Assembly (NCBI GenBank): GCA_903878115.1 | Contig: CAIRGO010000181.1 | Span: 1-36,926, forward strand | Direction: 5' to 3' | Origin: Akkermansiaceae bacterium | GTDB taxonomy: Bacteria; Verrucomicrobiota; Verrucomicrobiia; Verrucomicrobiales; Akkermansiaceae | Length of the DNA: 36,926 nt | In this document: one piece after another, positions 13,658-17,073 of the stretch | Numbering within the stretch: position 1 is the first letter of the stretch | How the letters are laid out: the number at the start of each line of letters is the position of its first letter | Translations under genes and position numbers: made by a program | The notes under the pieces: generated by a model | The model's database searches: none | The model's input: the letters and a program-made list of their open reading frames with translations, nothing else | What the model was told of the DNA's origin: nothing

Positions 13658-14545
13658 TTACGCCGCTTGCGGACCATTTTTTCGTTGAAGCAATTGTTTG
13701 ATTTTATCGACCATTTCGTTGGCTTCTTCTGGTAGAACATCGCTTGCTGCGGTGACGACAATCTTTCTTTCTGATAAATCAGTATCTCGGAGCTCGGAGA
13801 CATTGGTGAGGATTTTGGCCCGAATCCGAGCTTCCGCAGCACTATGGGCTAACATTTTAGCCGATTGAGAGCATCCGTGTATCAGTAATAAATCAGCATC
13901 ATGGGTGAGATCAGCCACTTGGCGATAACGTTTGCCCTCGCATTCGTCTGTGGTGTCTAAGAAGGTAAAACGTGAATCTCTCCGACGATTGCGCATTACT
14001 TCTAACAAATGCTTGGCGAGACTGTGATGGAATGTTGTTTCACAGATCACTCCATAGTTGGGTGCAAAAGGAATCCGTACCGCTTCTTCAGCCGTCTCCA
14101 CAACAATTGCTCGATGGTGGTCGGTGATTTGCGCGATAACCTCAGGATCATCTTTGCTGCCGATGATGATCAATTCGGCTCCTTCTAGTTTTAATAAACT
14201 TAACGATGTCTGCGCCCGGCGCACTTCTGGTGTTGAAAAATCTACCATCTTACGACCTTCGGCTTTCCATCTTTTCCGTAATGCATGCGGGGCTCCATGT
14301 GGCGGAATCACGATCAATGAATGTGAATGCAAATCCTGTGGGTCATCGCTTACGCCAGCATTTAATAGATGTTGCATCACTCTTTGGTTTTTTGAAAATG
14401 GTTGCCAGGTCCATACTTGATGTGTGTTGGCTAGCTCGATGGTTTTTTGTAGGGACTGTCTTTCTCGTTCGGTCATGCACCATGGCATGAGAATCTGTAG
14501 TGACTGCGCTGGGTCATGACTGTGCGATTGGGAATTGGTTTTCAT
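13658..14545 (-). CDS. Degenerate IspH (LytB)-like protein
   Basis: By eye the whole 295-residue protein aligns with IspH, the [4Fe-4S] enzyme that makes IPP and DMAPP. Matches: LQILMPWC (Cys23, first cluster Cys), PPHGAP (His83, E. coli His74), DPEV (Glu135, the Glu126 proton donor), CETTFH (168-173, the TT loop), ECEGKRYRQ (Cys202, third cluster Cys), GCSQSAKML (224-232, the SSN substrate loop) and a C-terminal VTAAS. The second cluster Cys is missing: DATCP has become DFSTP (102-106). Two active-site His positions are also changed (Gln48 and Asp133). It is therefore unlikely to be a working IspH and may bind a cluster differently or act as a sensor. Operator-like repeats precede the ATG. 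The homology is inferred from motif order; no search was run. Confidence 0.65.
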   Translation of the reverse strand: MKTNSQSHSHDPAQSLQILMPWCMTERERQSLQKTIELANTHQVWTWQPFSKNQRVMQHLLNAGVSDDPQDLHSHSLIVIPPHGAPHALRKRWKAEGRKMVDFSTPEVRRAQTSLSLLKLEGAELIIIGSKDDPEVIAQITDHHRAIVVETAEEAVRIPFAPNYGVICETTFHHSLAKHLLEVMRNRRRDSRFTFLDTTDECEGKRYRQVADLTHDADLLLIHGCSQSAKMLAHSAAEARIRAKILTNVSELRDTDLSERKIVVTAASDVLPEEANEMVDKIKQLLQRKNGPQAA

Positions 14546-14546
14546 G

Positions 14547-14561
14547 CTTTGTATGGCAAAG
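14547..14561. promoter_or_regulatory. Operator-like repeat B: CTTTG-TATGG-CAAAG
   Basis: Perfect inverted repeat with 5-base arms and a 5-base spacer, one base before the ATG of the IspH-like gene. It is identical in its arms and spacing to repeats at 14604 and 15572. A repressor bound here would block transcription or translation initiation of the IspH-like gene. Confidence 0.6.
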
Positions 14562-14570
14562 TTAAAATTT

Positions 14571-14595
14571 AAAAAAGACGCGAAGTAGCTCGCGT
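14571..14595 (-). terminator. Rho-independent terminator or attenuator before the IspH-like gene
   Basis: Read on the minus strand: stem ACGCGA, loop GCTACT, stem TCGCGT, then C and six T. It lies between the stop codon of the winged-helix regulator and the IspH-like gene. It may end the membrane protein/regulator operon. It also sits downstream of the promoter-like boxes at 14603-14630, so it could attenuate read-through into the IspH-like gene. Confidence 0.7.
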
Positions 14596-14602
14596 GAATT
14601 TA

Positions 14603-14630
14603 ACTTTGCATCACAAAGTGATCTTGGCAA
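14603..14630 (-). promoter_or_regulatory. Promoter-like boxes between regulator and IspH-like gene
   Basis: On the minus strand TTGCCA (14625-14630), 16 bases, then CAAAGT (14603-14608). The same two hexamers with a 17-base spacer form the promoter of the membrane protein gene at 15571-15599. Here too the CTTTG-N5-CAAAG repeat covers the -10 and spacer. The -10 box is a poor sigma70 match, so activity is uncertain, but the duplication argues for function. Confidence 0.45.
14604..14618. promoter_or_regulatory. Operator-like repeat A: CTTTG-CATCA-CAAAG
   Basis: Second copy of the inverted repeat, between the winged-helix regulator stop and the terminator. Together with repeat B it frames the terminator. 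The inner sides of the two sites (14557-14569 and 14597-14608) are inverted copies of each other over about 12 bases, so the whole segment 14547-14618 is a large imperfect palindrome. Confidence 0.6.
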
Positions 14631-14636
14631 GGAAAA

Positions 14637-14936
14637 TTATCGACCAATATCGAGAATTTTTTCCAAGATGGAAAGATAGCCATCGAACGCTTTTTTTCCA
14701 GTCTTCGAAAGCCAATAAGTAGTCTGAGGACGGCCATCGCCCGTATGTTTTTCGGTTTTCAAATATCCTGCAGTATCCAGAGTGCGCAGGTGAGTGATGA
14801 GATTGCCGTCACTCATATCAAGTTGTTGTTTTAAGTCCTGAAAAGCCCACGGCTCAGCGCGAGAAACGAGCAGCGTCATGATTGATAAGCGGCCTTTCTC
14901 GTGGATGATTTTATCGAGCTTGGAAAAATCAATCAT
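14637..14936 (-). CDS. Winged-helix transcriptional regulator
   Basis: A 99-residue DNA-binding protein of the small winged-helix type (HTH_34 / ArsR-MarR-like). RLSIMTLLVSRAEPWAFQDLKQQL forms the first helices, SDGNLITHLRTLDTAGYL is the recognition region, and KHTGDGRPQTTYWLSKTGKKAF is the wing. No ligand domain is present. The ATG at 14936 is chosen because it overlaps the stop of the upstream membrane protein gene by 8 bases (ATGATTGA); a longer frame would overlap by 50. Translational coupling to a membrane protein suggests that the two work together. The three CTTTG-N5-CAAAG repeats around this operon are its most likely binding sites (inference). Confidence 0.88.
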   Translation of the reverse strand: MIDFSKLDKIIHEKGRLSIMTLLVSRAEPWAFQDLKQQLDMSDGNLITHLRTLDTAGYLKTEKHTGDGRPQTTYWLSKTGKKAFDGYLSILEKILDIGR

Positions 14937-15564
14937 TCGCTGACTCACGCTGTTTGGTCGTGACAATAAGGGCCCCATAAATCATGTGGAATCCACCAAA
15001 CGAGATTGCCATTAGTCGCGAGCCATTGAGTTTCATCATAAAATGTTCCACATGATCCATAGTAAATAAACTGCTGAGGCAAAACACACCAAAGATTACA
15101 AATGCCCAGCCTAACCAAACCATTGACTTTGGCACAAATTCACGAATCGCCAGCAATGCAATCCCGTAGTGGGTGATCCAAAAGCAGGCGGCAATTTCTC
15201 TATTGATATTGTGAGCAAATGAAGTTTTTGCAACGAGTAGCCCGGTAATACCACCTGCTAAAAGAGACGGCAGTGCGCAGCGAATCACCAGTTTCAAACC
15301 CTGATTCCAGATTCTGCCGTTTTCTTTAGCGCGGGCAATCCGCCATAGCTGAAATAGATGAAATCCTAACACAATCGCTAGACCTATCAGCCATATTTGT
15401 GCCCATGCAAGACCAAATTTTTTCTCTGAGGCCCAAGCTGCCAAGCACGCAAGCGCCCCACCCACGAGTGCTGTTTCACCCGTTAGTGCGCGAAATATCG
15501 TGGCTTTCTCCATTAAATTGCGAATGATTCGCAATTGTTCTGCTGCTTCTCGAGCGGTGTCCAT
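14929..15564 (-). CDS. Integral membrane protein paired with the winged-helix regulator
   Basis: A 211-residue protein with an N-terminal amphipathic stretch (DTAREAAEQLRIIRNLMEKATIF) followed by about six hydrophobic segments (ETALVGGALACLAAW, AQIWLIGLAIVLGFHLF, LPSLLAGGITGLLVA, IAACFWITHYGIALLA, MVWLGWAFVIFGVFCLSSL, ISFGGFHMIYGALIV). I recognise no named family. The ATG at 15564 is chosen over a TTG at 15579. The promoter -10 ends only 6 bases before it, so the mRNA is probably leaderless. It is the first gene of a two-gene operon with the winged-helix regulator. It could be the signal-receiving partner of the regulator, but no direct evidence of function is visible. Confidence 0.75.
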   Translation of the reverse strand: MDTAREAAEQLRIIRNLMEKATIFRALTGETALVGGALACLAAWASEKKFGLAWAQIWLIGLAIVLGFHLFQLWRIARAKENGRIWNQGLKLVIRCALPSLLAGGITGLLVAKTSFAHNINREIAACFWITHYGIALLAIREFVPKSMVWLGWAFVIFGVFCLSSLFTMDHVEHFMMKLNGSRLMAISFGGFHMIYGALIVTTKQRESAND

Positions 15565-15570
15565 GCACTT

Positions 15571-15599
15571 ACTTTGCAAAACAAAGAGACTTCTGGCAA
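15571..15599 (-). promoter_or_regulatory. Promoter of the membrane protein/regulator operon
   Basis: On the minus strand TTGCCA (15594-15599), 17 bases, CAAAGT (15571-15576), then 6 bases to the ATG at 15564. The -35 is good, the -10 weak. The operator-like repeat C overlaps the -10 and the spacer. Confidence 0.5.
15572..15586. promoter_or_regulatory. Operator-like repeat C: CTTTG-CAAAA-CAAAG
   Basis: Third copy of the inverted repeat, placed over the -10 box and spacer of the promoter at 15571-15599. Binding here would repress the membrane protein and regulator genes, as expected for autoregulation. Confidence 0.6.
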
Positions 15600-15603
15600 G
15601 TCT
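15587..15603. terminator. Hairpin after the DUF3482 GTPase gene
   Basis: AGACTT-CTGGC-AAGTCT is a perfect 6-base stem. On the minus strand it follows the GTPase stop by 12 bases and is followed by CTTTGTTTT, a weak T-tract. It overlaps the -35 of the next operon, so it would separate the purN and regulator operons in very little space. Confidence 0.45.
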
Positions 15604-15615
15604 ATTTTTGCTCGA

Positions 15616-17073
15616 CTAGGGAGTCGTGAAATCAGCCTTTTCATGCAATGTGTTCAGAATTTCTTGATACACTTGAGGTTCCATTCCTCGATCAGGTGAT
15701 GATTTCATGCAGGAAGAAAACCATTTTTGTAAGGTGTTGCGACGCGCACGATCAAACTTACTGGTAAAAGAATGAGTGACGGAATCGATTTTTAAAATCT
15801 CACGGTCACGTCGTCCGTGAGCCCTAGCAAGAATGTGTTGATGGATGAGCAAAATGGAATCGAGCAGAATCCACGGGAAATTAGGGTTCGATGGCGGTCC
15901 GATCGAGAGTTCTTTGGCCTCGCTCTTTTTGAGTTTCATGCCATCCAAGCTGACGACCAAATTGGGCAGTGAACCACCTTTTAAAAATGCAGCAATGGCC
16001 CCAGTGCTGGCTGCGATTGCGGTAGGAATGCCGTGGGTTAATCCACCGGTGCCGATGTCGATGCTGCCGCCTGCAAGTGCTCCCGTGATGGCTCCTGCCA
16101 CAGTCAGTTGAGCGCGAGAAAGCCCCCATTTTTTCCATGTTTCATTGCTTTCAAAATCAAGTCCTTGGTGATGATTTTCTCGCAAATCAGCTTTTAATAA
16201 GTGATGTCGATAAAGTTTTAGCAATTTTTCGGATGCGGTTTTTTCGAGTTCAGCGAGTTTACGATAATACTCTTTCGATAGTGCAGCGATGTGTTTTTCT
16301 TTGCGCTGCGGAATTTCTAAATCCTGCGCATCGATTGTTTTTTCGCTGCGCAGTAGCAGTGAGGATTCGAGAAAATCAACGATGATTTCAGCGCTCTCTT
16401 CTTCACGATTTTCCCATTCTCGATAGATCAAGTCCACCGTAGTTTCGATAGCGGCACGATGTCTTTCTTCAATTTCCAATAAAGATTTCAGCAGTCGTAA
16501 TCGTTCGTCAAAACGAGCATGATGAGCATTGAATGTCCGCACTAAATTAAACGTAGCTCCTAGACGATTGCGCCATTCTTCTTGGTCGGGACTATTTTGT
16601 TCTTTTTGATTGAGCAATGCCAGACGCGGTCTTCCTGTCCATCGCAGTATTTCCATCTCGGCAAGAAATGCATCGCGCAGAGGTTTGGACGGATCAACAA
16701 TGTAGAGGATGCCCGCGCCTTCGATGAGTGGTTGCAGCAATCTGCATTCATCGGGGAATTCTGCATTACATTCCTGAGAGAATTTTGTGATGTCTTGCAG
16801 TGTAGGTGTCTTTTCTCCCGCGATGTATTGAATTCGTTTCATCGCATCCACAGCGCGAGAAAATCCAGGTGTGTCGAGAAAACGCACTCGTTCTTGCCCA
16901 TCAAGAATCAACGGTAATACTTGCACTTCAGTCGTCTCGCCCGGTGTCGGACTTACGCGAATTTGTGCATCATCATCGATCTCTAACAATGTTGATAAAA
17001 CGGCGGATTTCCCCATATTCACACGTCCTACAACGGCGAAGGCGGGAATGTTTTCTGCGATCCAACGACTCAT
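15616..17073 (-). CDS. DUF3482-family GTPase
   Basis: A 485-residue GTPase. G1/P-loop GRVNMGKS at 16-23, G2-like Thr-rich PTPGETTEV, G3 DTPG, and a G4-like LLNQKE. After the G domain come about 100 helical residues with charged coiled-coil character. Then follows a glycine-rich hydrophobic stretch (AGAITGALAGGSIDIG...) that could insert in or lie on a membrane. This is the usual architecture of the DUF3482 GTPases found beside DUF2868 membrane proteins. The start at 17073 shares ATGA with the stop of the DUF2868 gene; a start at 17094 would overlap further. Cellular role of the pair is not established. Confidence 0.85.
   Translation of the reverse strand: MSRWIAENIPAFAVVGRVNMGKSAVLSTLLEIDDDAQIRVSPTPGETTEVQVLPLILDGQERVRFLDTPGFSRAVDAMKRIQYIAGEKTPTLQDITKFSQECNAEFPDECRLLQPLIEGAGILYIVDPSKPLRDAFLAEMEILRWTGRPRLALLNQKEQNSPDQEEWRNRLGATFNLVRTFNAHHARFDERLRLLKSLLEIEERHRAAIETTVDLIYREWENREEESAEIIVDFLESSLLLRSEKTIDAQDLEIPQRKEKHIAALSKEYYRKLAELEKTASEKLLKLYRHHLLKADLRENHHQGLDFESNETWKKWGLSRAQLTVAGAITGALAGGSIDIGTGGLTHGIPTAIAASTGAIAAFLKGGSLPNLVVSLDGMKLKKSEAKELSIGPPSNPNFPWILLDSILLIHQHILARAHGRRDREILKIDSVTHSFTSKFDRARRNTLQKWFSSCMKSSPDRGMEPQVYQEILNTLHEKADFTTP

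Follow-up and report, generated by a model that had tools for sequence, protein, structure and literature searches.

The inverted repeat CTTTG-N5-CAAAG, found three times within 1.04 kb of an Akkermansiaceae contig, probably represents the operator of a winged-helix autorepressor which, together with a membrane partner, tunes isoprenoid supply and envelope genes. The site is conserved at the proposed promoter of the regulator's own operon, the same palindrome marks unlinked targets only in genomes with the regulator, and it is found on isoprenoid genes of either pathway, namely, a second IspH, ispH-ispG, or HMG-CoA synthase.

Three palindromes and their genes in the window

A motif search of the window (the whole stretch of DNA analyzed, 36,926 nucleotides) confirmed the three exact copies that the first-pass annotation had reported at 14547-14561, 14604-14618, and 15572-15586, and found no further ones (Table 1). 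In 100 dinucleotide shuffles, the mean was 0.04 copies and none of the shuffles reached three, in good agreement with the chance expectation of 0.035 given in the first pass. In the complete genome (4.41 Mb), we counted seven copies of the palindrome versus six of the reversed control pattern, indicating that the bare motif is not enriched genome-wide and that its clustering is the special feature. Indeed, three of the seven copies lie inside the 1.04 kb, while seven points placed at random had three within 1,040 bp in only 11 of 2,000,000 simulations. The four copies outside the window do not have the pyrimidine/purine spacer ends of the conserved operator described below.

The placement claimed for the three copies, at the membrane-gene promoter, after the regulator gene, and at the start of the IspH-like gene, also holds in the sequence, the promoters being proposed ones. 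The first copy ends 7 bases ahead of the likely membrane-gene ATG at 15564, the second lies in the gap beyond the regulator stop codon, and the third leaves a single base before the IspH-like ATG at 14545. The likely starts of the membrane protein (15564) and of the 99-residue regulator (14936) were judged by their orthologues. The outer flanks of the copy ahead of the membrane gene are A and A, so that it misfits the strict 17-bp pattern (see below) on one side.

Two near-identical promoter-like sequences were seen in the window, one ahead of the membrane gene (TTGCCA-17 bp-CAAAGT) and one after the regulator gene (TTGCCA-16 bp-CAAAGT), the latter having rightly been called a near-copy of the former. 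A generic sigma-70 scan, which gave few and weak hits, reported neither, and both are therefore designated as proposed only. In the relatives, with sites oriented by gene, a TTG starts 12 to 14 bp before the membrane-gene site in 44 of 73 cases; where IspH-like sites are paired, the first one has it at this distance in 21 of 22. For single IspH-like sites, the TTG is at 11 bp in 23 of 37, and for the second sites of pairs it is at 11 to 13 bp in 7 of 22. From these sequence patterns, it is plausible that TTGnnn, 15 to 18 bp, and CAAAGT form a -35/-10 pair, in which case the operator would cover the spacer and the -10. Within the order, the distance from the site start to the membrane-gene profile start has a median of 32 nt (range, 29 to 79). 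In an alignment of four genomes of the genus, the IspH-like start codon directly adjoins the second site.

The terminator-like hairpin at 14578-14595 follows the proposed IspH-like promoter and precedes the start codon; three relatives of the genus have a comparable stretch that is rich in G+C and ends in a T tail. The hairpin could mark the end of the regulator transcript or attenuate the IspH-like transcript.

Table 1. Features of the palindrome-bearing module in the window
Feature	Coordinates	Strand	Basis or remark
Operator copy, proposed membrane-gene/regulator promoter	15572..15586		Sequence, conserved in relatives
TTGCCA, proposed -35, 17 bp before CAAAGT	15594..15599	minus	Sequence and TTG spacing in relatives
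Membrane protein, no assigned family, proposed sensor/partner	14932..15564	minus	Stop codon 14929-14931
Winged-helix protein HTH_34 (PF13601), proposed autorepressor	14640..14936	minus	Stop codon 14637-14639
TTGCCA, proposed -35 of IspH-like gene, 16 bp before CAAAGT	14625..14630	minus	Sequence and TTG spacing
Operator copy over proposed IspH-like promoter	14604..14618		Sequence, conservation
Terminator-like hairpin with T run, between two operators	14578..14595	minus	
Operator copy directly 5' of IspH-like start codon	14547..14561		Sequence
IspH/LytB-like gene, degenerate second IspH paralogue, proposed target	13661..14545	minus	Stop codon 13658-13660

Conservation of the site and its association with the regulator

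The membrane protein, the regulator, and the IspH-like gene were searched for in 57 genomes (the window's own and its relatives), giving 29, 29, and 27 matches, respectively. An exact site was present upstream in 25 of the 26 strong membrane-protein loci (L008 to L033), L030 being the one without, and in none of the three weak ones (L034 to L036). Among the 27 IspH-like loci of this set, 24 had the site; the three site-less ones (G017, G029, and G030) belong to genomes without an orthologous regulator, the best regulator match of G030 being a 34% hit. In G044 (L036/L063), the membrane-gene and regulator matches are broken by stop codons, and no palindrome was found nearby.

A separate collection was made of the best 80 of 133 loci encoding a relative of the regulator, 79 of which are titled as Verrucomicrobiota taxa (including Luteolibacter, Haloferula, Prosthecobacter, and Roseibacillus) and one as "Bacterium". 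Since these loci partly overlap the 57 genomes (e.g., G006 and L179), the two samples are not fully independent. In the best 80 of 133 loci, exact sites numbered 163 in 460 kb, versus 0 for the reversed control. An exact site preceded the membrane gene, at the proposed promoter of the regulator's own operon, in 69 of the 76 loci with a usable start and preceded the IspH-like gene in 59 of 61, while none of the 16 loci without an IspH-like gene but with enough sequence had a downstream site. The search of related genomes advised in the first pass thus found the palindrome conserved near the orthologues. The seven membrane genes without an exact site are those of L200, L203, L210, L211, L217, L220, and L230, the first six of which are labeled as, or resemble, Roseibacillus-type loci. 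This Roseibacillus-like group lacks the membrane-gene site and keeps the site after the regulator. In the two IspH-like misses, L217 and L220, the site was instead found about 1.4 kb upstream. In the 80 loci, four positions that had not been used in the search were conserved as R, Y, R, and Y, extending the motif to the 17-bp palindrome RCTTTGYNNNRCAAAGY, which we used as the strict site.

The association reaches well beyond the order. The membrane-protein profile matched in 25 of 240 genomes of the phylum, and the regulator profile in 70 of 387, with 76 matches. We examined 57 of these 76, 56 of them from outside the order of the window; the matches left out were 14 modules from that order and 5 that were weak or partial. 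When whole loci were scanned, 44 of 49 membrane/regulator modules had a site at up to one mismatch, 35 of them an exact one; in the first count, the numbers were 42 of 48 (33 exact), versus 1 and 0 for the reversed control. An exact site was seen in the membrane-gene module L414 and also in L428, where it lies upstream beyond the cut-off distance. Regulator homologues without the membrane gene had a site in only one of eight cases (L419, with one mismatch) and an exact one in none. In several distant classes, the site is located about 80 bp ahead of the membrane-gene start. Five of the 49 distant modules had no site, and most of these keep the same recognition helix. A DGNL-RHL helix is common to most site-less modules and to three homologues originally counted among those without the membrane gene, indicating that the helix alone does not predict the site. 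In L289, L292, L373, and L374, a membrane family of YLEFPP type follows the regulator, with no Pfam match in the two that were scanned.

Strict sites numbered 81 in the 25 module genomes (0.60 per Mb) and were nearly absent from the 32 others (3 sites, 0.025 per Mb). The reversed control gave 8 in the same 25 genomes and 13 in the 32 without the regulator, so that the three sites of the latter, being fewer than those of the control, correspond to chance level. Moreover, IspH-like genes located away from the module bear their own site pair in four genomes: in G027, the gene is 0.78 Mb away on the same chromosome; in G008 and G015, it is on other large contigs; and in G028, it is on another short contig. 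The unlinked genes with their own sites and the near absence of strict sites without the regulator together indicate an action in trans. The idea of an autoregulated module is thus supported by the conservation of sites near orthologues, and the association extends to further classes of the phylum. As for the autorepressor with a small regulon proposed in the first-pass annotation, the regulon indeed looks small in the genome of the window, but it is wider in relatives.

Isoprenoid and envelope genes next to the site

The third gene of the module in the window's order is a member of PF02401, the family of IspH/LytB (TIGR00216), the last enzyme of the methylerythritol phosphate (MEP) pathway. 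An IspH over the TIGR00216 cut-off is present in 56 of the 57 genomes, and the module gene represents a second, shorter paralogue of PF02401 beside this long form, which in the genome of the window is encoded at G000:C197:19018-20040. The module copy exceeds the TIGR00216 cut-off in 18 of 27 cases and falls below it in 9, all from the window's family and including the window itself (79.6 versus an equivalog cut-off of 187.85 bits). Unlike in intact copies, the second and third cysteines are replaced by T and D in the window protein, and the histidine of the GxxxHxEV stretch is a D. We take these cysteines and this histidine to be the residues holding the cluster and the substrate in IspH. The gene (13658-14545) has an intact reading frame and has retained its operator despite the degenerate protein, as in the 8 further genomes of the family where it is likewise degenerate. 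Here, the operator has outlasted the usual active site of the enzyme.

In other classes, a different isoprenoid enzyme is found. Among the 16 distant modules that we examined first, 5 had HMG-CoA synthase as the next gene; the four that were scanned scored 462 to 500 bits against the TIGR01835 equivalog cut-off of 360.35, and the fifth (L290, G211) was also over the cut-off. The five genomes have an HMG-CoA reductase and no IspH match, and they therefore most likely use the mevalonate pathway. Over the whole set, HMG-CoA synthase exceeded the cut-off in 62 of 387 genomes, 24 of which also have the regulator, as determined by coordinates. In 15 genomes from seven families, a gap of no more than 200 bp separates the regulator match from the synthase match after it, and each of these genomes has a site with at most one mismatch (11 exact) ahead of the operon or of the synthase. 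An exact site was found within 350 bp ahead of the synthase in 6 of 27 copies from regulator genomes versus 0 of 40 from the others (Fisher P = 0.003), and a site at one mismatch in 9 of 27 versus 2 of 40. A further case is G114, which has IspH and no HMG-CoA reductase match and in which the only strict site outside the module precedes ispH-ispG. Six other ispH loci, from distant genomes with the regulator or the membrane gene, lacked a site even with one mismatch allowed, and in 9 of the 24 genomes with both genes, the synthase does not directly adjoin the regulator; both findings count against the generality of this association. With this reservation, the sequences indicate that the operator, the regulator, and the membrane protein remain linked to isoprenoid supply throughout the phylum though the enzyme and the pathway change. 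In G216, the regulator is followed by a DAGK_prokar gene (L427:1887-2300; diacylglycerol/undecaprenol kinase family), possibly another link to isoprenoid lipids.

We also inspected the stretches around extra strict sites, 25 in module genomes (among the matches listed) and 3 in the others. In the former, we found SLBB-type polysaccharide-export proteins (L121, L124, and L126, of which L121 and L126 were scanned against Pfam), a pair of membrane proteins (L139 and L143), and CreD (L135). A membrane family was near the extra sites in 5 of these 25 stretches (L125, L128, L138, L140, and L144); it has the operator in five genomes and no Pfam match in the three members scanned. CreD was encountered twice more, once with a site at the start of the gene in G256, which belongs to another class (L303), and once as the gene after the regulator in G388 (L417), so that CreD and other envelope genes appear to be recurrent putative targets. 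In enterobacteria, creD is controlled by CreBC, a two-component system with direct-repeat sites, whereas here the site is a palindrome and the candidate regulator is a one-domain winged-helix protein. Of the three extra sites in module-free genomes, two are inside long reading frames and one is 237 bp before one, which implies that some extra sites must be chance.

Proposed mechanism and alternative explanations

The regulator scored 73.1 bits against HTH_34 (PF13601), well over the gathering cut-off of 27, and 22.7 bits against the PadR family (PF03551), below the cut-off of 27. Its predicted model (pLDDT 93.7) has a winged-helix fold, and the best PDB match both by sequence and by fold is 1ub9, the solved HTH_34 member PH1061, which was the first Foldseek match with a TM-score of 0.76. 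The conserved helix SDGNLITHL is the putative recognition helix. The model also resembles PadR-like proteins, such as Rv3488 (5zi8) and Bacillus subtilis PadR with its operator (5x11). PadR-family proteins are small, often autoregulated repressors with palindromic operators. However, besides the Pfam score, the present system differs from PadR by its operator, its constant membrane partner, and its isoprenoid targets. The membrane protein matched no Pfam or NCBIfam family. Its model is all helical and confident (pLDDT 90.6), with no PDB fold match at an E value of ≤0.001 and no sequence match at an E value of ≤1; hence, no function can be derived from its fold.

We propose that the winged-helix protein encoded between the palindromes binds them as operators. 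The half-site centers lie 10 bp from each other, close to one helical turn; this would suit a symmetric dimer, and a homodimer could thus read the two CTTTG half-sites. The operator would overlap the proposed -35/-10 of both the membrane/regulator operon and the IspH-like gene, and the bound protein should then block RNA polymerase; we prefer repression on the basis of this geometry. The outcome would be autorepression and repression in trans of an isoprenoid-pathway gene, and the membrane protein, whose gene mostly lies directly ahead of that of the regulator, would be the likely sensor or partner that relieves repression.

The palindromes might instead be operators of another regulator encoded elsewhere, with the winged-helix/membrane operon as one of its targets, and the five distant modules that keep the gene pair and have no site would fit such an explanation. 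We consider it unlikely, given that strict sites follow the winged-helix gene from genome to genome and that its operon is the most constant target across classes. It is equally unlikely in our view that the winged-helix protein is the binder but serves as an activator, or acts with a sign that varies by promoter. A site about 80 bp before the membrane-gene start, as in several distant classes, is compatible with either sign, but the sites of the order are near the start codon and would cover the core promoter, provided that the proposed -35 is correct.

Two further explanations were rejected. RNA hairpins acting as leader or attenuator could be imagined from a possible stem of 5 to 6 bp and from the terminator-like hairpin between two palindromes. 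We regard this as very improbable: there was no Rfam match in 14400-15800 at E values up to 1, the arms keep their letters while the spacer varies, and distant one-mismatch sites are by definition uncompensated. In addition, the promoter-like TTG upstream of the first sites would place these at or before the transcript start, which argues against an RNA element. Chance or mobile repeats, suggested by a bare motif about as frequent in the genome as the reversed control, are ruled out for practical purposes by the shuffles, the clustering, and the conservation at orthologous positions with freely varying spacers.

Operators of a winged-helix autorepressor thus remain our preferred reading. To our knowledge, dedicated transcriptional control of bacterial isoprenoid precursor synthesis is poorly described, and we found, among the matches listed, no regulator of this kind in the literature. 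Likewise, among the matches listed, the search revealed no operator or regulon in print for HTH_34 (PF13601), and nothing relevant on CreD, Verrucomicrobia IspH paralogues, mevalonate in these phyla, or ACTTTG/CAAAGT. The operator therefore gives a handle on HTH_34 proteins and on an uncharacterized membrane-protein family, and its presence on two nonhomologous enzymes of alternative pathways is a strong hint at the signal sensed by the regulator. More speculatively, and with somewhat more doubt than belief, we envisage a phylum-wide two-gene switch, made up of the membrane protein and the winged-helix repressor of about 100 residues, that would sense the state of isoprenoid lipid carriers or of the envelope and in which one 17-bp operator would set precursor supply in either pathway (IspH in MEP users, HMG-CoA synthase in mevalonate users) along with CreD, polysaccharide-export, and uncharacterized membrane genes; the controlled IspH of the window's lineage would then be a pseudoenzyme without a cluster, possibly with a sensor function of its own.

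Finally, in L237, L238, and L244, two operators 33 bp apart (three helical turns) are found ahead of the membrane gene, suggesting two stacked dimers.
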